Below, in pieces: positions 1,986-50,590 of a stretch of 50,590 nucleotides of DNA. The position numbers were made by a program, and so were the translations under genes. Under the pieces are notes generated by a model, which saw only the letters and a list, made by a program, of their open reading frames with translations, was not told the origin of the DNA and did no database searches. The stretch spans positions 1 through 50,590 of the forward strand of contig MGKI01000012.1 in NCBI GenBank assembly GCA_001795615.1, written 5' to 3'. Positions within the stretch are counted from its first letter, which is position 1, and every line of letters begins with the position of its first letter. Source of the DNA: Candidatus Yanofskybacteria bacterium RIFCSPLOWO2_01_FULL_42_49. Its GTDB lineage: Bacteria > Patescibacteriota > Minisyncoccia > 2-02-FULL-40-12 > GWA2-44-9.

Positions 1986-3812
1986 CTAAGGAGTGATTTT
2001 CCAAACAAATATAGAATTGCCGATGACAGCTATGGGTTTATGGGCGTCGAGCCAGGCGTAACTGGTTTCTGGTTTTTCCCGCGAACCCATGAAAAATGAA
2101 GCTGATACGGCGATGTAGCCGCCGTTGGGGTTTTTTGCCAAGAAGTCGCGAGCGTCCTTATATGTTCCTGCATTTATCCAAACGAGTTTCTCTTTTAAAT
2201 AATAACCTTGATCAGCCCAGCCGAAGTAATCAAAATGAATTTTATCTACATTTCCGCCAGCTGGCGGATTCTTAACCCACATCGCGAGCCGTTTTAAATC
2301 CTGCCCCCAATCCAAATTAGAGTCGACGACATATTGATGTCCGCCCGACGGTCCGCCGGCGAGTTGGTTGAAGTAGGTCAGATAATAGGGATACACTCGG
2401 ATGTTTTCTACGATATACCAACCCAACAAAGCAAAAATTAAAATCGTCCCGATTTTAATTTTTGCTTTGTAATCTCTAATCTCTACAGAGATTCCCGGCT
2501 TCGCACGGGAACCTTTTCCGAGCAATCTCGAATCTCTAATAATCTTTGAAAGTTGCCCCGCTAACATTATAAATACAAATCCATATGTCGGGAGCAAATG
2601 TCTCACCCCGATATTAAGATTGGCTCTTATGCTCAGATACCAATATATTGCTATCCATAATAACATCGAAAACTCAACAAAGTAAGTTTTTACCCACTCT
2701 TTAATTTTTAGAAATTTAAAATTAGAAATTAGAAATTGCGTTTTGGTTGTTAAATATACGAATACAATTATCGTTAACAACCAAAACGCGAGGGGTTCTT
2801 TAATCGCGTACACAACCGGGAAATAATTTTTCCAGGCATAATTCCTCACCTCACCGAGAAAGAAAGTAGTGTTGCCGCCGATGGCTCTCTGGTTAACCAT
2901 AAGAAGTCCGGTGGCATAGTAAGCGAGCGGTCTTATCACCGGTTTATCCGACGCCCAAATGACAGGATCAGCGATAAGGCGATTGCCGTATGACCCTAAA
3001 TTATATGCGCTGTCTGATTTCTGTTTTGCCAGCGGATAATTCATGGTATGGAGAGCGTAAACCGGCCAGACAACCAGAATAATTCCCATAGCCATTAGTA
3101 CAAGGGAGCGGACAAACAAAACCGCGGACGACTTGAAAGAAAAAGAATTAGCAAAGAGCCAAGCAATAACCATCAAAATAAACAGAGGTGCAAGCAATAC
3201 TACGGAAAATTTGGTCAATTGAGCAATTCCAAAAGCAATCGCTGCGAGCCAAAATGTTTTTCGGGATGGCTTTTGTAAATATTTGATAAAAAAGTAGGTG
3301 CCAAGAAGTACCCCGAATAATGCCGGCATATCGGTGGTGACAAACCTTGAATGGGCCAGTACCGTAGGCGAGAACGAGAAAAGAATGGTTGCGATAAGAG
3401 CCGCGGCTTTTCCATATCTTTCATTCGCAAATCTGTAAATCAACACAGCCGATAAAACAAAAAACAGGAGCATTGCTGATTTAGCCGTTCGAGCAAGTAG
3501 GTCAACATTATTTGAGGGATTGTAAATAAGCGTTCGTCCGAAATTCCACTGGCCATTAATATCGCTAAGCCAGTATTGGGTAGAAAAAGCCGATTGATTG
3601 ACTGGTAGTAATGATAGAACCAATCCTGCAAGATCTTTGGCCAAAGGCGGATGTTCGGGATTTAACCGATAGTCGCCTTTGGTGATATATGAATATCCGG
3701 CTCCGACATGTGGGATTTCATCTACAATAAAAGAATCATCCCACAGGCTGGTGATCGACAAAGCCAACGCCACCAAAACGACAAGCACGGCGATGTTAGA
3801 TATCTTTGCCAT
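1986..3812 (-). CDS. Multi-TM glycosyltransferase, PMT/ArnT (GT39)-like
   Basis: 608 aa; N-terminal DE/NPEHPPLAK motif after the first TM and multiple TM segments. Confidence 0.7.
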   Translation of the reverse strand: MAKISNIAVLVVLVALALSITSLWDDSFIVDEIPHVGAGYSYITKGDYRLNPEHPPLAKDLAGLVLSLLPVNQSAFSTQYWLSDINGQWNFGRTLIYNPSNNVDLLARTAKSAMLLFFVLSAVLIYRFANERYGKAAALIATILFSFSPTVLAHSRFVTTDMPALFGVLLGTYFFIKYLQKPSRKTFWLAAIAFGIAQLTKFSVVLLAPLFILMVIAWLFANSFSFKSSAVLFVRSLVLMAMGIILVVWPVYALHTMNYPLAKQKSDSAYNLGSYGNRLIADPVIWASDKPVIRPLAYYATGLLMVNQRAIGGNTTFFLGEVRNYAWKNYFPVVYAIKEPLAFWLLTIIVFVYLTTKTQFLISNFKFLKIKEWVKTYFVEFSMLLWIAIYWYLSIRANLNIGVRHLLPTYGFVFIMLAGQLSKIIRDSRLLGKGSRAKPGISVEIRDYKAKIKIGTILIFALLGWYIVENIRVYPYYLTYFNQLAGGPSGGHQYVVDSNLDWGQDLKRLAMWVKNPPAGGNVDKIHFDYFGWADQGYYLKEKLVWINAGTYKDARDFLAKNPNGGYIAVSASFFMGSREKPETSYAWLDAHKPIAVIGNSIFVWKITP

Positions 3813-3814
3813 GA

Positions 3815-4921
3815 CTAAAAAACTTCAAGTAATGCTATTGATACCATAAGCGCAATTAACGCCAAGAACGGTCCGGCATTAAGTCCCATCCAGTGTTTGT
3901 GCTGGTGAGGATAAACCCCCACACTCATACTATGAGTGTGGGGGTAAACCAAATGCTCCCATTTATTTAGTTTCTCCATTACCCACCAGAGGCCTTTAGC
4001 CGATAATAATATTATCGGCGGCAATATTACGCTAAGGCCAAGAACTCCTGCTTGCGCAGATGGGTCTGCTGGTAACAGCACTGGTACAAGCATTACAAAC
4101 AGCCACGAGAAAACAACCGTATGGGCGACGGAAAAATGGCCGTGTTTTCTCTTTAACCAGTGGATGATTTCCTTGATGAAACCTATCGCGAAAAATATGC
4201 TTATCGGCCAGGAAACAAGATTAGAACCGCTAGGCTCTATAAACACGATCTTATCTATCAGCCATCCCAAGTTTCTGTACAATTGCGTGAACGGTTCAGC
4301 GCTTGAGAAAACGGAATTATCCGCGGACAAAATAAAACCGGGATTTTGCCAGACATAAAAACCCACAGGCAGAACGACTGCCATAGCCGTAAGGACCAGC
4401 AACGAAAAACCGCCCAAAATTTGTCCCTTGGTCTCGCTATATTTAGATAAAGAAAAATCTTTTTTGATGTAATCCCAATAGTTCAAAAATAGGAGCAATA
4501 CTGCTAGCGGCGCGACAAGAAAACTCTTGCCGGCGTACAACCCTGCTCCGCCAAACAAACCGGCCATAAAAAAATCAAAAACATGGCCGTATTTTAGCCC
4601 GTGCCATATGAAGTAAAAAGCATATATCAGAGCGAAAGAAGCGAGGGTCTCTTTGGCGCCGGATTTAGACATAAAAATATGCCACGAAGATACGGCAAGC
4701 AGAAAAGAAGATATCATTGCTAAATTCTCGTCAAATAATTCCTTGACCAAAAAATAAAGGCCAATGACGGACAATATTCCCGCTGAAACGGAAAGTATGA
4801 TGGAAGCTTTTTGTTCAAGCGGTAAACCCGGGCCCCAATTTAAGCCGTACAATCTTACAAAAACGGCGACAGCCGTTATCAGCGCCAGGATCCAATAATT
4901 GTTTTTTCCCGATGTGGCCAT
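3815..4921 (-). CDS. Multi-TM membrane protein, glycosyltransferase-like
   Basis: 368 aa polytopic protein directly upstream of the GT39-like gene. Confidence 0.6.
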   Translation of the reverse strand: MATSGKNNYWILALITAVAVFVRLYGLNWGPGLPLEQKASIILSVSAGILSVIGLYFLVKELFDENLAMISSFLLAVSSWHIFMSKSGAKETLASFALIYAFYFIWHGLKYGHVFDFFMAGLFGGAGLYAGKSFLVAPLAVLLLFLNYWDYIKKDFSLSKYSETKGQILGGFSLLVLTAMAVVLPVGFYVWQNPGFILSADNSVFSSAEPFTQLYRNLGWLIDKIVFIEPSGSNLVSWPISIFFAIGFIKEIIHWLKRKHGHFSVAHTVVFSWLFVMLVPVLLPADPSAQAGVLGLSVILPPIILLSAKGLWWVMEKLNKWEHLVYPHTHSMSVGVYPHQHKHWMGLNAGPFLALIALMVSIALLEVF

Positions 4922-4999
4922 TTAAACTATTCTAACAGAAATTAATATTTTGCTTGTCCACACCGGCTATTTACATTAGTTTCGTAATTTTTTATATTT

Positions 5000-6652
5000 G
5001 TGTCGATGGTAGAGAAATTAACTCAAATTCAACAGGAACAAGTTGGGACTCCCGAAAAAAGCGCGGAGGAGTTGTGTTTGGAAACTCTTAAATTAAAACG
5101 AGATCTTTTATCATCTCATTATGCGTTAAATTCTTTGAGGAGAGCGCTAGACAAGCGTGTGAAACAAATGACAGACGAGGAATTTAAAAGCGATCTGGAA
5201 GTTTCTAACTACAAAAAAGTGGCTGATGAATACAACAGGAGAAGAAGGATTTTTCTGGAATCTTTTGACAGCTTATCCGAAGCCGACAGAGAAAAAATAA
5301 CCGAACTGACCAGCTTAACTAAAATTGAGATTGAGTTATCGTCTAGGAAATCTGCGGTTGTTGAGCCAGAAGTTAAACCAGAAAAAGAAATCTCTGAACA
5401 GCAAGTTGTTGAAAAACCGGAAAGAGAAATTACTCTTGAAGAAGCCGAAAGGATGTTGAAATATTCTAAAGACACTGGCAGGGTTCTAGAGCTTGCTTAT
5501 TGGGAGTCAAAAAGGGCTGAACTTTTAGAACGCCAAGATGCAGAAGCAAATCCAGACAGGACTGCGCCAAAAGGATTTACGCAGAGAGTTAGGGATTCTT
5601 ATGATAGCAGGATGTCTCCGTTAGGACTAAGGAAAGAAGCGATGGAGGCGTTGTCATCTGATCAGCCGGAGACGGGAGATGTCTCCCTGGAAACCAAGGA
5701 CTCGCGGCAATGGACCGTCAAGGGCTGGCTTGCCGAAAGAGGCAAAGGTATTTTAAGCGCTGGAATTTGGGAAGTTCGCCAGGCATGGCGGTTCCAAAAA
5801 GGCACCAAGCTTGCCGCTGATGATCTGGAAGCATTATCAGCCGGAATAAATATTGAGAACGCCGACGAAGCTCAAGAAAAAGCCAACGAGATTTTAAGGA
5901 TAATGAGGGAAAACAATATTACCACCGTAACGGCTCCGGAATTTGTCGGCATTGCCAAGAATGTTACTTATGAAAAGGCGGCCGAAAACAATGACAGGAT
6001 AGAGTACATTATTAAAAACGCTATTGATACCTTTAAGGAGAGAGTGGCTAAATATCGCGGGCAAGCCACGGCTGAAACCGTTTTGACGCCAGAAAATATT
6101 AAAGAAGTGGAAAATGACTTAAGGATGCAGTTAAATAAGTTCAGAGACGGAGCGACCATGGAAGATGTCAAGAACTTTGCCAAAGTAATGCGCGATAACA
6201 TGGATAAGCGCTGGTGGCTAAGGTATGTTTACGCTCCGCTTGAAGCTTCTTTGCTTGGCTATTTGGGATATACATATCTGCCTTGGTCCAGATGGTTTGG
6301 CGGCGGTGATTTAGTTCCCGGCGGAGAAGATATCGCCTTATCGCCTGAAGAAACCGGGCAGAGATACATGGATCACAATATGTGGGAAGAATCGAGAGAA
6401 CACCTTAAGGAAATAGGAGTTGAAAATCCAACCAATGAAGACATTCAGGCGGTGGATAGCGCCGCTGCTCAGGAAAATAATATTCATGTTGTAAATCCCG
6501 ACACAAATCAAACTTTGTGGCCGGAGACAGCAGGAGGTCAGACCAAAGATATAAGTATGGTGAAGGGGCTTATTAAATGGGGGGCGGCGCACAAAGCAGC
6601 GCTTGCGATAAAGGCCGCAAGACTGGGAGTTAAAGTCGCGACTGGATTTTAA
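5000..6652 (+). CDS. Hypothetical protein, charged/coiled-coil rich
   Basis: 550-aa ORF, GTG start. Confidence 0.65.
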   Translation: MSMVEKLTQIQQEQVGTPEKSAEELCLETLKLKRDLLSSHYALNSLRRALDKRVKQMTDEEFKSDLEVSNYKKVADEYNRRRRIFLESFDSLSEADREKITELTSLTKIEIELSSRKSAVVEPEVKPEKEISEQQVVEKPEREITLEEAERMLKYSKDTGRVLELAYWESKRAELLERQDAEANPDRTAPKGFTQRVRDSYDSRMSPLGLRKEAMEALSSDQPETGDVSLETKDSRQWTVKGWLAERGKGILSAGIWEVRQAWRFQKGTKLAADDLEALSAGINIENADEAQEKANEILRIMRENNITTVTAPEFVGIAKNVTYEKAAENNDRIEYIIKNAIDTFKERVAKYRGQATAETVLTPENIKEVENDLRMQLNKFRDGATMEDVKNFAKVMRDNMDKRWWLRYVYAPLEASLLGYLGYTYLPWSRWFGGGDLVPGGEDIALSPEETGQRYMDHNMWEESREHLKEIGVENPTNEDIQAVDSAAAQENNIHVVNPDTNQTLWPETAGGQTKDISMVKGLIKWGAAHKAALAIKAARLGVKVATGF

Positions 6653-6675
6653 CCGATAACTGAATTTAAAACTTT

Positions 6676-6975
6676 ATGGACGAATTAAACCAAGGACAAC
6701 AACAAGTTGCTGATAGAATCGGAGAACTACTTGCTGAATCACCGCTTGATGAAGATATCAAGCAAGTTTTATTGGACGGAATAGAACGGCTTCCGGAGCA
6801 CTTGTTATTTAAGTTACTGGATGTTTTGGAAAACGAAAGAGAACAGCTTGAAGCGGTTGCTTTTGAAGTACAGTTATTTTTGAAAGAACAAAAAAACAAC
6901 TGGGAAAAAACAGCTCAGGATCAGCAAAAAGCGGCAGATACGATAATTGATGCTTGGGTTGAGAAATTGAAATAG
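6676..6975 (+). CDS. Hypothetical small acidic protein
   Basis: 99-aa ORF closely following the 550-aa ORF. Confidence 0.6.
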   Translation: MDELNQGQQQVADRIGELLAESPLDEDIKQVLLDGIERLPEHLLFKLLDVLENEREQLEAVAFEVQLFLKEQKNNWEKTAQDQQKAADTIIDAWVEKLK

Positions 6976-8191: not shown

Positions 8192-8629
8192 ATGCCAGAA
8201 TCAGGTGTTACCATTGAACAAGAAATAGCCCAACTTGAACAACAGATTGCCGAGAAAAGGCTCCGCCAGCTGGCGGATTTGGGCGTCCCACTGCCGGAAT
8301 TGCCTTCCGTTGAGACGCAGGAACCATCAACCGAAAAAGAGGCCCTTCACAAAATTATCGGCGAAAAGATTCAACAGCAAGCACCCCAATATCAGCCTGC
8401 GCCAGTCAAACCGCAACAGGACGACAGCGCTTTAAGCTATGTTTTGCCGGAGTTGAAAGATAAAGTTCAGGAACTCGTTAACTTGGTTTTTAACAAAAGT
8501 TTAGAGGACGGTATAAAAGAAGTGGCTAAGACCAATAATGCCGCGCTGATTGATGCGTTCCATGATGTCTTGGTGGATGAATTATATAATGTTTTGGTGG
8601 AAAGGAAAAAGCTAGAAAAATTAACCTAA
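8192..8629 (+). CDS. Hypothetical protein
   Basis: 145-aa ORF upstream of the VirD4-like gene; contains the TCCGCCAGCTGGCGGA palindrome at 8262-8277. Confidence 0.6.
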   Translation: MPESGVTIEQEIAQLEQQIAEKRLRQLADLGVPLPELPSVETQEPSTEKEALHKIIGEKIQQQAPQYQPAPVKPQQDDSALSYVLPELKDKVQELVNLVFNKSLEDGIKEVAKTNNAALIDAFHDVLVDELYNVLVERKKLEKLT

Positions 8630-8775: not shown

Positions 8776-11151
8776 TTGTCTCTATTTCTCATAATAATCT
8801 ACCTCATCGTCATCGCCATTATCTTCATTGCCGCTTTAGTTTTGCTTGGTTCGTTCAGAACCAAAGGCAGTATTGCGCGAGCGCTTAACATGTCGCTTTT
8901 TTCGATTACTCTTCCGCGCGATATCTCGACAAGTTCGGGGCAAGGACAGCAGAGAACGGAGAAAGAGCTGATTTCCATAATGGAACAGCTTTACTCGTCT
9001 TTTTCCAACATTCACTCAAGGGGCTGGAATAAATTTTTATACGGCGAACCGTATATTGTCCTTGAAATGGCCGTTCACCATGTAGGCGAAGAAATATTTT
9101 TCTACATGGCGGTTCCCAGAACCTATGAGCAGATTTTTGAAAAACAGGTCCACGGTTTTTTCCCGACGGCTGAAGTTGAGAGAGTTAAAGATTATAATAT
9201 TTTCAATCCCAACGGTTATTCTTTTGGTGCCTATGTGAGATTATCCTCAAACTCCATTCTGCCTTTTAAAACATATCAAAATTTACAGGCGGACCCCTTA
9301 AGTGAGATAGCGACCTCTCTTTCAAAACTTGAAAAAGAAGGCGAAGGGGCGGCGATTCAGATATTGATGCGGCCGTCTCACAGAAACGAAGCCCGCTCTC
9401 TGGCTCAAAAAGTAGCAAAAGAAATGCAGTCAGGCCACAAGTTTTCAACGGCGCTATCAAGGGCCAAGCATAAGCCCAAAAAACTAGCGCCCGACAAGCA
9501 GCAGCCGGAGCCGTCCCGAGTAGTAACGCCGTTTGAAGAAGAAATCATCAAAGGCATTCAGTCCAAGGCGACAAAACCGGTCTTTGACACGAATATAAGG
9601 ATGGTTGTTTCCGCGGACAACGAAATGAGGGCGCAGCAAATTCTAAATGACATGGAGGGCGCTTTAGTTCAGTTTACCGCCAACGAAATGAACAGCTTAA
9701 AAGTGGCGAAAGTTTCTTCGGGCGCTTTGTCTAAATTATTGTTTAATTTTTCTTTCAGGTTGTTTGATAACTCTTATGCAACCCCGTTATCGTCCGAAGA
9801 AATAACCAGTTTGTACCATTTCCCGCTGGCCTCAACTCTGGCGCCGAGGGTTAAATTTTTAAGGTCAAAAAGCTCTGAGCCGCCGGTTAACTTGCCTCAG
9901 GAGGGGATAATTCTGGGCAAGAATATGTTTCGTGGGGTAACAAGCGTGGTGAAGATGTCCAAAAACGACAGAAGGAGACATTTTTATACTCTAGGCCAAA
10001 CCGGTACCGGTAAATCAACTCTGATGGAAAACATGATCGGTCAAGATATCGTGAACGGAGACGGCGTCGCATTTATAGATCCCCATGGTACGGCGATAGA
10101 GAAAATTCTCGGCACGATACCTTCGGAAAGAATGGATGATGTCCTAGTGTTTGATCCGGCGGATACGGGCCGGCCTATCGGTATCAATATGCTGGAGTAT
10201 GACATTCGATATCCTGAACAGAAAACATTCATCGTTAATGAACTTTTAAGCATATTCCAAAAACTGTTTCTCGCTGAGACGATGGGGCCGATGTTTGACC
10301 AGTATTTCAGGAATGCCGTACTGCTTTTGCTGGACGATTCTCAACACGAGAAACCAACCCTGGTAAATATCCCGAGGGTGCTTACGGATGAGGCCTACAG
10401 GAGGGATAAATTATCCCGAGAGACGAATCCTATCGTAAAGAATTTCTGGGAATTTGAAGCGGAAAAAGCCGGCGGCGAAGCGGCTTTGGCCAACATGGCT
10501 CCGTACATAACATCAAAAATTAACGGTTTCATTGCCAACGAATATTTACGGCCGATCCTTTCACAGCAAGACAGCGCGTTTAATTTTCGGGAAGTCATAG
10601 ATCAAAAGAAAATACTCCTAGTTAATTTATCAAAAGGCAGAATAGGCGACATCAATGCCAATTTACTGGGCATGTTCATAGTCGGCAAACTTCTGATTGC
10701 CGCTTTATCGCGGGTAGATGTGCCTGAAGACCAAAGGAACGATTTTTATCTGTACATTGATGAGTTTCAGAATTTTACCACCGACAGTATCGCGACTATT
10801 CTCGCCGAAGCCAGGAAGTATCGCCTTAACCTTACGATTGCCAATCAGTTCATCAAGCAGCTGGTCGACAAGATTAGGGATGCTGTTTTCGGCAATGTGG
10901 GTTCAATGGCCGTGTTCAGGGTTGGCGCAGACGATGCCGAGTTTTTAAAAAATCAATTTGATCCGGTGTTCACCCCACAGGACCTTTTGAACATTGATAA
11001 TTTCAATTGTTATGTTAAATTGCTTATTAACAACCAGACCGTAAGGCCGTTTAATATTAAAATAAATCCGCCCCAAGAATCGAACCCGGAACTTGCGCAA
11101 AAAATTAAAGAATTATCGCGAATGAAATACGGAAAAGCAGCACGCGAATAG
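8776..11151 (+). CDS. VirD4/TraG-like conjugative-type DNA transfer ATPase
   Basis: 791 aa, TTG start; N-terminal TM; Walker A GQTGTGKST and motif FIDPHG; DEFQNF Walker-B-like motif. Confidence 0.8.
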   Translation: MSLFLIIIYLIVIAIIFIAALVLLGSFRTKGSIARALNMSLFSITLPRDISTSSGQGQQRTEKELISIMEQLYSSFSNIHSRGWNKFLYGEPYIVLEMAVHHVGEEIFFYMAVPRTYEQIFEKQVHGFFPTAEVERVKDYNIFNPNGYSFGAYVRLSSNSILPFKTYQNLQADPLSEIATSLSKLEKEGEGAAIQILMRPSHRNEARSLAQKVAKEMQSGHKFSTALSRAKHKPKKLAPDKQQPEPSRVVTPFEEEIIKGIQSKATKPVFDTNIRMVVSADNEMRAQQILNDMEGALVQFTANEMNSLKVAKVSSGALSKLLFNFSFRLFDNSYATPLSSEEITSLYHFPLASTLAPRVKFLRSKSSEPPVNLPQEGIILGKNMFRGVTSVVKMSKNDRRRHFYTLGQTGTGKSTLMENMIGQDIVNGDGVAFIDPHGTAIEKILGTIPSERMDDVLVFDPADTGRPIGINMLEYDIRYPEQKTFIVNELLSIFQKLFLAETMGPMFDQYFRNAVLLLLDDSQHEKPTLVNIPRVLTDEAYRRDKLSRETNPIVKNFWEFEAEKAGGEAALANMAPYITSKINGFIANEYLRPILSQQDSAFNFREVIDQKKILLVNLSKGRIGDINANLLGMFIVGKLLIAALSRVDVPEDQRNDFYLYIDEFQNFTTDSIATILAEARKYRLNLTIANQFIKQLVDKIRDAVFGNVGSMAVFRVGADDAEFLKNQFDPVFTPQDLLNIDNFNCYVKLLINNQTVRPFNIKINPPQESNPELAQKIKELSRMKYGKAARE

Positions 11152-26160: not shown

Positions 26161-26362
26161 CTCGGCCTTGTATCATCCTCGACACGCTTCCCTGCCTACC
26201 GGCAGGCAGGAGGTAAGATAACTCATCCTAGAGTTATCTTACCTCAGCTAAATTCGCCCCTCCGGCCGCCGGATGATTGGCCAAAAGGCCAGACATTGTA
26301 TCATCCGGCTCCCTCGGGGTCTCAGTTGTCTCAGATGACACAAGGCCTCGCTTGTTGTTGGC
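26161..26362 (-). repeat. Repeat family B, copy 2
   Basis: Reverse complement matches 1742-1923; carries an extra palindrome at 26191-26210. Confidence 0.85.
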
Positions 26363-47518: not shown

Positions 47519-49153
47519 TTATGTATTATAATATGATAAGAACAAATAATTGCGGGTATAGTACAGTGGTAGTACGACTCCCTTCCAAGGAGTAGACACG
47601 AGTTCGAATCTCGTTACCCGCTCCAGTATGAAACGTTCGGGAAATTGACCGACCTGATTGTGGGCGACGCCAAGCGTCGCCCATTGATTCGGTGAGGTAA
47701 TCTCTGAATCGCTCGGCCCGATGAATCGGGCCTCGCGGTTGGCCAAGATGAGGTTCGACCCAAAGATTCCTTTGGCGATAACCTTTTTATCAAAAAGGTT
47801 ATCGCCTCTTGCGATTTTATCTACATTTAGAGCCTCATTTATCCATTTTCTCATCGGTTCTACCCAAGAGAATTGCTTTTGTTCAAGGGTGAGTATTTTT
47901 TCTTCTATGGTCTTTTTTTCTGACATTAGTTTGGCCTTCTTTTCAAGGTAGGATTCTCTATCAACATCCTGGTCTAAATAACTATCCAAGAGTCTTTGGA
48001 GCTTGGCCTTGATATCGGATATTTGATCTTTGGATTCTTGAACAAAAGCCAATGACGAGCTTTTGGTGTCCTGTTCTTCCGAACTAATCTTGTTTAATAA
48101 ATAATCAGCCCATTCTTTTTTCAAAGAAAATTTTTGAAGGAGATTTGATATTTGTCTATCCAAAACCTCTTGTCTTACATTGGGTTCATTGCACTTTATT
48201 GTCTTTGATTTTTTGGAGCAGTGATAATATGTGTAGTAATGGATATTTCCATTCTTTTGTTTCTTTATCTTGTATTCTCCGGTTATCATCATCCCGCAAT
48301 TACAAAACAATAATCCGCAATATGGTTGGGGGTTATTTCCATTTACATCTTTGTCTTTTTTCTGCGGCCTTCCTCTGCTATGCAATATTTCTCTCACTCT
48401 ATCAAAAATTTTCTTTGAGATTATGGGCCGATGTTTTCCCTCGTAAATTTCTCCGGCATATTTAAAGTGTCCGTAATAAAAAGGATTTGAGAGGATAAAT
48501 GAGGCCTTTGATATGTGGATTCTCTTTCCGGTTTTGGAGATTATGCCGTGATCTTGGAGATAGTTGGATATATCTTCTAATCTGGAATTTCCTTGAGCAT
48601 AAATATCAAATATTTCTTTAACTATTTTGCCTTTCTTTTTATCAACGATTATTGTTTTATTTCTTGAGTCGTTTATATATCCAAGAGGAGTACGTGAGGG
48701 ATATTCTCCCCTTCTTACTTTTTGTCTTAATCCTCGCTTGGTATTTTCGGAAAGAGAATCCACATAATATTTAGATTGGCCAAAAGCAATATTCAGCATG
48801 AACTTGCCTTGAGGTGTGGATTCAAACCAGAATTGCGGAAATTTAAGGGCAAGTATTTTGTTACAATCTAAAAAATATATTATTTTACCGCCATCTATGG
48901 AATTACGAGCCAACCTGTCGGGATGCCAAGCGATAATTCCGTTGGCTTCGCCATTTTCTATTCTATCGAGCATGGAATTAAAAAGTGGTCTTCCTGGAAT
49001 CTTTGCCGATTGCTTTTCAATAAGAACATCGACGATTTCGAGATTTTCTCGCTTGGCAAATTCCCGCAATTCTGTAATTTGAGCTTCGATAGATAGAACT
49101 TGCTTGTCTTCGACGTCTGTTGATTTTCTGGCATAGAGAAAATATTTGTTCAT
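47519..49153 (-). CDS. Large serine recombinase
   Basis: 544 aa; YARKSTDVEDKQVLSIEAQ, GIIAWHPDRLARN, recombinase domain, zinc ribbon-like CxC..C, coiled coil; C-terminus runs antisense through tRNA-Gly. Confidence 0.92.
   Translation of the reverse strand: MNKYFLYARKSTDVEDKQVLSIEAQITELREFAKRENLEIVDVLIEKQSAKIPGRPLFNSMLDRIENGEANGIIAWHPDRLARNSIDGGKIIYFLDCNKILALKFPQFWFESTPQGKFMLNIAFGQSKYYVDSLSENTKRGLRQKVRRGEYPSRTPLGYINDSRNKTIIVDKKKGKIVKEIFDIYAQGNSRLEDISNYLQDHGIISKTGKRIHISKASFILSNPFYYGHFKYAGEIYEGKHRPIISKKIFDRVREILHSRGRPQKKDKDVNGNNPQPYCGLLFCNCGMMITGEYKIKKQKNGNIHYYTYYHCSKKSKTIKCNEPNVRQEVLDRQISNLLQKFSLKKEWADYLLNKISSEEQDTKSSSLAFVQESKDQISDIKAKLQRLLDSYLDQDVDRESYLEKKAKLMSEKKTIEEKILTLEQKQFSWVEPMRKWINEALNVDKIARGDNLFDKKVIAKGIFGSNLILANREARFIGPSDSEITSPNQWATLGVAHNQVGQFPERFILERVTRFELVSTPWKGVVLPLYYTRNYLFLSYYNT
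47552..47625 (+). tRNA. tRNA-Gly (anticodon TCC), CCA encoded
   Basis: Acceptor gcgggta/tacccgc, anticodon stem-loop actcc-cttccaa-ggagt, T arm gttcgaatc, 3' tCCA. Confidence 0.92.
47621..47758 (+). repeat. 138-bp inverted repeat, left arm, starting at the tRNA-Gly 3' end
   Basis: Reverse complement of 49469-49606 with about 3 mismatches by eye. Confidence 0.92.
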
Positions 49154-49186: not shown

Positions 49187-49229
49187 CACACCAAAAAGCT
49201 CTGGCAGAAAGCCAAAGCTTTTTGGTGTG
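49187..49229 (-). terminator. Terminator-like hairpin
   Basis: cacaccaaaaagct..agctttttggtgtg inverted arms. Confidence 0.5.
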
Positions 49230-49305
49230 GACCCGGCGGGACTTGCACCCGCTTATCCGAGTGGTAACAACGGAATGTTACTATATACGTCACGGGCCCG
49301 GATCC
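49228..49305 (-). tRNA. tRNA-like element with non-canonical D/anticodon region
   Basis: Minus strand: acceptor GGATCCG/CGGGTCC, discriminator A, T arm GCGGG-TGCAAGT-CCCGC; anticodon-like stem GTAAC/GTTAC with 8-nt loop; no convincing D arm. Confidence 0.4.
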
Positions 49306-49468
49306 ACGGGAGTAATTTTAGTATAGAAAAAGCCCTCTTTCAAGGGCCATTTCTATACCACTCGGGTTTGTCCGTGATGCTACGCAACATACCGTTGTTA
49401 TTAACAGTATAGCATGGCCGATATCCACATGTCAAATTTTCTAAAAATCTCTAAAATCGCAAGAGATT

Positions 49469-49606
49469 TCGAACCTCATCTTGGCCAACTGCGAGGCACG
49501 ATTCATCGAGCCGAGCGATTCAGAGATTACCTCACCGAATCAATGGGCGACGCTTGGCGTCGCCCACAATCAGGTCGGTCAATTTCCCGAACGTTTCATA
49601 CTGGAG
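49469..49606 (-). repeat. 138-bp inverted repeat, right arm
   Basis: Reverse complement of 47621-47758. Confidence 0.92.
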
Positions 49607-49824
49607 GGATTATACGAACAGATTAGAACTCATTTTATCAAAAATCTCTGACCAAAGGAAGCCGCCTTTTTTATACTCGCTTGGGCGGCTCTCATTTCAG
49701 ATTTCGCTTTTTGGATTTGTGTATCAGATTTGGTAAAATAATAATAAAGTTTGAGAGGATTTTTTCGTGGACGGCAAATGGACTTTAGAACCAAAAACAA
49801 GTAAAACTAAGAAAAATATAAGGG

Positions 49825-50590
49825 TTATTTTAATTGTTCTATATCCTTATCCAAATATTTCCCTGCCTTATCCAGAGTATCTCCAATATGTTTACTCATA
49901 ACTTTAACCTCGAGCTCCTTTTCATCTGGTGAAATATCACTTTTTACCATGCCGGCCATTCTGTCTACATCTTTTTTAACTAGGTCAAAAGCATTTTTCA
50001 GGTCTCGGCTAATAATTATTGACTCTCTCTGCGATCTGGCTAAACGCAACAATGTTTTTCTATAAAACCAGCCGGTCGCTAAAACACCACCCACCGTTAA
50101 AACGATAAGCAATCCCGATAAGGTAATATCTAAACCGAAGAGTGAAATCACGGCCTTTTCCACATAGCTGACTTTTATCGGACTCGTCGGCAAACTCAAT
50201 GCACCCCTTGAATCCTTGGCCTTTACGGTCACGAAATAATCACCTCGGCGTAATTCTCTGTCGAAACGAAATTCCCACTCTCCGCTTTTATTTGTCTCGA
50301 CGTCATTTTGTAATACTAAAAATTTATCCTTATCTTCAATGCTTACGACAACGTTGGCATCAGCAATTACGGTGCCCTTAATAATTAATCGGTCATCGGT
50401 GCCGATTATAATTTTTTTGGTAATTGAGGTAATTTCCGGCATATCAAGCGGTAAAATTTCCACTTTAGCACGCGATTCAATACTATTGCCGGCCTTATCT
50501 GAAGCGACAACGCGAATCATGTATGTACCCGGGGAGTGCGGCTTGAGCACGTACTCCGAAGCAGTAGCACCTTCTTGTATAATCGGCTCT
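49825..50590 (-). CDS. Ig-like-domain surface/membrane protein, 5' end outside the window
   Basis: ORF 49825-50550 with no obvious natural start; Ig-like repeats then TM and coiled tail; frame likely continues past the window edge. Confidence 0.6.
   Translation of the reverse strand, partial: EPIIQEGATASEYVLKPHSPGTYMIRVVASDKAGNSIESRAKVEILPLDMPEITSITKKIIIGTDDRLIIKGTVIADANVVVSIEDKDKFLVLQNDVETNKSGEWEFRFDRELRRGDYFVTVKAKDSRGALSLPTSPIKVSYVEKAVISLFGLDITLSGLLIVLTVGGVLATGWFYRKTLLRLARSQRESIIISRDLKNAFDLVKKDVDRMAGMVKSDISPDEKELEVKVMSKHIGDTLDKAGKYLDKDIEQLK

Follow-up and report, generated by a model that had tools for sequence, protein, structure and literature searches.

We hypothesize that a class of small mobile elements carries a spare end for its own integrase gene: upstream of a large serine recombinase (LSR) that targets tRNA genes lies a second, intact and inverted attachment site (herein referred to as attP2), integration would disarm the integrase by replacing its C-terminal tail, and attP2 would hold that tail in reserve. 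We regard this statement, taken as a whole, as about evenly balanced between right and wrong. The anatomy of the elements, the crossover point, the dual attP, its conservation and the existence of both orientations of the recombinase segment are direct observations. These elements form a widespread class in Patescibacteria (2.6–7.6 kb, median 3.7 kb across the 27 elements with an attR) that would be able to enter nearly any tRNA gene through a simple address rule, consisting of the T-loop and tRNA bases 73-72.

The recombinase locus and its inverted repeat

The window analyzed here is the whole of contig C12 (MGKI01000012.1, 50,590 nt), from a source genome (G000) of 14 contigs and 807 kb. It contains an inverted repeat that pairs 47621-47758 with 49469-49606 (138 nt, 98% complementary, spacing 1710 nt), a match that BLAST stretches to 163 nt (E = 1e-63) and that lies far beyond chance. 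The minus-strand gene associated with the left arm carries the Pfam domains Resolvase (7e-22), Recombinase (5e-15) and Zn_ribbon_recom (7e-7), all three above the curated cut-offs and in the order expected of an LSR, with an N-terminal resolvase domain followed by the recombinase and zinc-ribbon domains. The features of the locus, as assigned by sequence comparison, are as follows:

47519..49153, minus strand: LSR gene, 544 aa (Pfam domains)
47519..47620, minus strand: substitute recombinase tail, read antisense from tRNA-Gly and the sequence that flanks it 5′ (by comparison with the native tail)
47552..47625, plus strand: tRNA-Gly(TCC), integration target and host half of attL (ARAGORN; Rfam tRNA, 74.8 bits)
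47621..47622: attL crossover dinucleotide, tRNA bases 72-73, AG on the gene strand (arm identity ends here)
47623..47758, minus strand: left arm, the element half of attP1 in attL, encoding the recombinase C-terminal linker
47759..47802, minus strand: hairpin-containing stretch of the gene, about 44 nt long, that is absent from the upstream copy family-wide (boundaries approximate)
49469..49606, plus strand: right arm, the inverted recombinase 3′ region and arm half of attP2, with the end TGG-AG
49605..49606: intact attP2 crossover dinucleotide AG (the window is locus L076 in the dinucleotide comparison)
49607..49651, plus strand: native recombinase tail GLYEQIRTHFIKNL* (translation; family motif)
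49625..49629, plus strand: AGAAC motif, 18 nt off the dinucleotide (counterpart: tRNA T-loop CGAAC, 47602-47606, minus strand, 14 nt off)
49604..49664, plus strand: stretch identical to the attR of the same element on contig C8 (590-530; 61/61 nt)
49665..50590: start of the cargo, up to the contig end (the other end of the element is probably C8:1-589)

The first-pass annotation had described the right arm as open on the plus strand and the recombinase gene as running antisense through tRNA-Gly at its end, and both descriptions hold: the translation of 49469-49651 is exactly as given there, with the frame through the right arm running to SNLILANCEARFIEPSDSEITSPNQWATLGVAHNQVGQFPERFILEGLYEQIRTHFIKNL, and the gene at 47519-49153 (minus strand) ends ...FPERFILERVTRFELVSTPWKGVVLPLYYTRNYLFLSYYNT. 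The right arm that it placed at 49469-49670 is real, although the relevant unit is 49469-49664, because the arm stops at the AG of 49605-49606 and 49604-49664 equals G000:C8:590-530 over 61 nt.

The window also contains a second, unrelated inverted repeat (1743-1923 / 26161-26361; 150 nt at 91% plus 31 nt at 100%), with its copies 24 kb apart. A tRNA-like sequence that ends in CCA and is followed by a terminator-like hairpin is found at 49223-49307 (minus strand), in the interval that separates attP2 from the start of the recombinase gene, and a partly complementary stretch lies directly upstream of it (about 49355-49415). ARAGORN missed the copy in the window; its counterpart in locus L035 (2402-2474) is called as tRNA-Ala(tgc).

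Origin of the two recombinase endings

It had also been claimed that the recombinase has two alternative endings that inversion would exchange. The right arm does hold the other ending and an inversion would swap the two, but the present tail was made by integration. The DNA of the native tail is present again in the same genome, where C8:530-590 matches 49664-49604 (61/61) starting at the crossover, and this second copy adjoins chromosomal sequence beside pyrH, as an attR would. We read the junction at 47621-47622 as attL and C8:588-589 as attR, and the right arm together with the native tail as a second, intact, inverted attP. Since the native tail is found both at the C8 attR and at the attR of 27 other elements, the tail now on the gene in the window came from tRNA integration; the LSR unit is integrated in tRNA-Gly(TCC), with an antisense tRNA-Gly tail having replaced the native one at integration. 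Inversion as the maker of the current tail was dropped once the attR turned up on C8.

At the C8 crossover the host sequence reads CTAAAC, not CCA, and the CCA now encoded in the tRNA-Gly gene of the window probably derives from the element. The attR host side likewise lacks TGG in the elements looked at (L136-L138, L147 and L148), which suggests that the tRNA gene gains an encoded CCA upon integration. The neighbourhoods of pyrH and tRNA-Gly are not syntenic in two same-genus genomes, leaving no empty-site comparison there, and no Rfam family accounts for the arms or for the sequence outside attP.

Distribution across Patescibacteria

A scan of genome contigs combined with searches of relatives yielded 142 distinct loci with related recombinases, and in 114 of the 142 the LSR gene ends antisense in a tRNA gene (18 amino-acid types, 39 anticodons). 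Inverted arms are found in 91 of 129 main-clade loci and, among main-clade loci whose 3′ end is uncut and whose upstream sequence extends for 300 nt or more, in 67 of 78; the 13 distant relatives lie mostly in tRNAs too, without arms. The tree separates 13 sequences (armless among the testable ones) from 116 others, 85 of which have arms, and armless members remain within the 116-sequence group as some losses or missed cases. As a sister LSR clade ends in tRNAs without attP2, the spare end is not indispensable. A scan of viral contigs with the recombinase returned zero relatives, and a search of the literature found no description of these elements.

The source genome itself has three further complete elements with attP2 and attR (L161 on C9, L162 on C5 and L165 on C1), as well as element remnants beside tRNA-Leu on C4 and C3 (L163, L164). 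One element of the family carries a CBASS-like defence set (L136, cargo at 2998-6771: a CBASS-like oligonucleotide cyclase, a one-TM effector and a type II DNA methyltransferase), and at L147 two group I introns (8251-8466 and 8959-9199) occur with a tRNA cluster that adjoins the integrated element. Family recombinases are also present on records labelled Woesearchaeota (L061) and Deltaproteobacteria (L031); zero branch length separates L061 from L052 (Gottesmanbacteria), making misbinning of L061 likely.

The assemblies are mostly metagenome bins whose contigs often break inside the arms, with overlaps that resemble k-mer lengths, as might be seen if assemblers had duplicated or misjoined the arms. 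Such an artefact is scarcely credible, given that it is contradicted by arms differing by a few bases, by the fixed 44-nt gap between the two copies and by the recurrence of the arrangement in dozens of independent genomes, including the single-contig G270.

Two near-identical attP regions and a conserved native tail

Across the 27 elements for which an attR was found, the outer sequence of attP2 matches the attR over 39-354 nt (median 99%), so that attP1 and attP2 were near-identical and inverted before integration. We infer a pre-integration form in which two inverted attP regions divide a recombinase arc from a cargo arc. Locus L259 has a 484-bp inverted pair (99% identical) in which the LSR C-terminus continues into the native tail, and L139 resembles it, with both attP intact and the native tail on the LSR; the recombinase genes of both loci are decayed and their contig ends are without overlap. 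Remnants that lack a recombinase (L141, 8759-10889; L260, 7823-9502) contain two inverted tails or back-to-back attP, and look as if the recombinase arc went via the inverted arms.

Arm identity has a median of 99% within an element compared with 83% to the nearest relative, indicating that the arms exchange sequence. In many loci, including the window (47759-47802 vs 49455-49469), the same 44-46 nt are missing from the upstream copy immediately inward of the arm, and this common gap implies that attP2 is an inherited copy with a homogenised outer part, not a fresh duplicate; a copy made anew at each integration was dropped on this ground. An old inherited copy would also be expected if the right arm were a remnant under no selection, left by an earlier duplication or by another element that has decayed. 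We consider a relic very improbable, as the arm is present across a clade of 116 LSRs, the arms are 99% identical while relatives differ and the dinucleotide is always matched to the current tRNA, a concerted identity that contradicts neutral decay.

Past the upstream arm, the reading frame continues in most loci to a short conserved end (e.g., ELYNSARTFFERN or SLYNEIRTFFEKNY) with the motif R-T-x-F, which is nearly invariant family-wide (R, T and F are invariant in an 18-sequence alignment). Among 36 distinct native tails (10 codons), pN/pS is 0.54 in the true frame versus 0.78 and 0.94 in the other frames, a pattern that we interpret with moderate confidence as selection on the protein and hence as use of the native tail as protein. 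This constraint is relevant to the idea that attP2 is an operator, bound by the LSR to regulate its own transcription, and that arm identity is maintained by gene conversion only. Across the family, attP2 does for the most part precede the LSR start by 1-340 nt, a promoter-like place; however, the distances reach 1855 nt, and a binding site would need neither a 60-150 nt arm at 99% nor a tail under coding constraint, so that we consider an operator role quite unlikely.

The attachment-site rule

In the loci that can be aligned at TGG, a subset selected by the presence of TGG, the attP2 dinucleotide following TGG equals tRNA bases 73-72 in 42 of 42 cases; shuffling gave a mean of 17.6 matches, with 0 of 10,000 shuffles reaching 42, and the base after the dinucleotide matches between attP2 and the tRNA in only 20 of 42. 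The central dinucleotide is thus common to attP and attB, as is characteristic of LSRs. In 39 of the 40 tRNAs in which the antisense T-loop sequence CGAAC was found, its distance to the dinucleotide is 14 nt, and in 33 attP2 sites a like motif is 18 or 19 nt away from the dinucleotide, placing the motif 4-5 nt farther out in attP than in attB for the one half-site examined. Indeed, the recognition motif of serine integrases is shifted 5 bp outward in attP relative to attB (PMC3783163). On a tree of the same 40 rows, 22 changes of amino-acid type are required versus 10 changes of dinucleotide, and the geometry from T-loop to base 73, being constant in tRNAs, explains how close relatives use different tRNAs.

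Orientation of the recombinase segment

Integrated copies occur with the tRNA at the 3′ end of the gene (state A) or on its 5′ side, adjoining the upstream arm (state B). State A is found in 114 loci and state B in 4 (L173, tRNA-Gly; L027, a tRNA array; L050, tRNA-Phe; L090/L212, tRNA-Tyr), where both counts are of loci, some of them related; at L071 and L035 the tRNA is also on the 5′ side, not joined to the arm. All state B contigs end at or before the LSR 3′ end, save for a short run of L050 into tRNA-Phe. At one end of L050, tRNA-Phe is joined to the upstream arm, and at the other contig end the gene 3′ end leads through an arm and on to 20 nt of this tRNA-Phe (108 nt repeated), in a genome with only one tRNA-Phe match of that quality. 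Unless chimeric reads are responsible, both orientations would be present in the L050 sample. Contig ends inside arms were set aside as evidence of inversion, because they are accounted for by repeats that exceed k in length; L050 is the exception.

Searches of 238 + 380 genomes with tail profiles found no intact LSR with its native tail beside a tRNA, and every full arm-plus-tail match in those genomes has a short frame (<200 aa). The earlier suggestion of orientation-dependent recombinase forms therefore survives in part: both orientations exist in nature (114 vs 4 loci, with both junctions at L050), and it is this existence that the loci document rather than an inversion switch as such, no intact recombinase restored by inversion having been found beside a tRNA. 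Orientation could alternatively be fixed by the attP chosen at integration, with no later inversion and with attP2 as a second usable site. Such a choice is compatible with the occurrence of both orientations and with the same dinucleotide and flanks at both sites; it is nonetheless unlikely, since equal sites predict approximately equal orientations, a ratio of 114 to 4 would need selection or a context effect, and the L050 assembly has both junctions.

Proposed mechanism

From these observations we infer a circle, the disarming of its integrase and re-arming by inversion. Before integration the element would be a small circle in which attP1 overlaps the integrase 3′ end and attP2 lies upstream of the gene, and the LSR would join one attP to a tRNA 3′ end via the dinucleotide at bases 73-72 and the constant T-loop motif. 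Use of attP1 would send the native tail to attR and fuse the gene to antisense tRNA sequence, whereas use of attP2, or a later inversion of the recombinase segment through the arms, would keep or regain the native tail. Identical arms make the DNA adjoining the tRNA the same for either attP, and the bias toward state A would stem from the fate of the recombinase. The likeliest and simplest reason for that bias would be that the integrase is put out of action by the tail swap in combination with head-on transcription towards the tRNA, while copies with an intact integrase would excise or rearrange DNA and then be lost.

A different role for the inverted attP pair would be in replicating the circle or setting its copy number, on the pattern of FRT in the 2-micron plasmid, the tail swap being a side effect. 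The near-identical inverted sites do split a recombinase arc from a cargo arc, and one of them overlaps the recombinase 3′ end; however, no gene for replication stood out among the small cargos listed (the family-library search covered L136) and the near-total tail-swapped state of integrated copies would be left unexplained. LSRs are, moreover, reported not to recombine attP with attP (PMC3783163), which counts against a copy-number role, in our view an improbable one, and from which inversion in the spare-end reading would probably need homologous recombination. In that reading attP2 would be a built-in spare end, and homologous recombination between the arms would restore the enzyme. The most complete form of the hypothesis is a self-disarming, re-armable integrase that is switched off by an antisense-tRNA C-terminus, switched on by inversion through the homogenised attP2 and directed by an address of T-loop plus 2 bp; we put it forward tentatively, as a possibility that we lean somewhat against. 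One enzyme design reading such an address would permit retargeting within a dinucleotide class without change to the enzyme.

Comparison with known systems

The recombinase resembles the serine integrases of LI/A118, phiC31 and Bxb1 in its Resolvase, Recombinase and zinc-ribbon domains, in the dinucleotide shared by attP and attB and in the outward position of the attP motif. It differs from them in that it targets the invariant 3′ portion of many kinds of tRNA gene, attP overlaps the integrase 3′ end and a second, inverted attP flanks the gene. Multi-targeting LSRs are said to be single enzyme families with many genomic targets, whereas the targets here have a common RNA-gene geometry, from the T-loop to base 73.

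The recombinase gene of the yeast 2-micron plasmid is flanked by inverted copies of the FRT target, and inversion during replication allows amplification. This plasmid (FLP/FRT) is similar in placing a recombinase gene between inverted target-site copies and differs in having a tyrosine recombinase, a nuclear plasmid and symmetrical sites that recombine mutually. In the immunity systems of BPs-type phages, integration changes the 3′ end of the repressor gene and there is no inverted second attP. The likeness lies in an attP within a gene whose 3′ end is altered, which is the integrase gene here and the repressor gene there. One account of integration-dependent immunity in mycobacteriophages (BPs and relatives) describes the attP as lying within a gene (PMC4557955).

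The nearest parallel in working is with the suicidal tyrosine integrases of archaea (SSV1, pTN3, pT26-2), in which the att site is inside the integrase gene, a tRNA is the target and the gene is damaged (PMC8371274); here too the att site lies within the integrase gene and integration alters it. The present gene is a serine recombinase rather than a tyrosine recombinase (Phage_integr_3), so it is not a member of that group; moreover, it occurs in Patescibacteria, only its C-terminal tail is replaced and a spare end is carried. Suicidal integrases have been reviewed as exclusive to archaea, with rescue by related elements discussed and with the survival of elements that disable their own integrase regarded as a puzzle (PMC8371274). 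The elements described here would be their counterpart among bacteria, with a serine recombinase and a built-in spare end for its gene, which makes this puzzle of survival testable.
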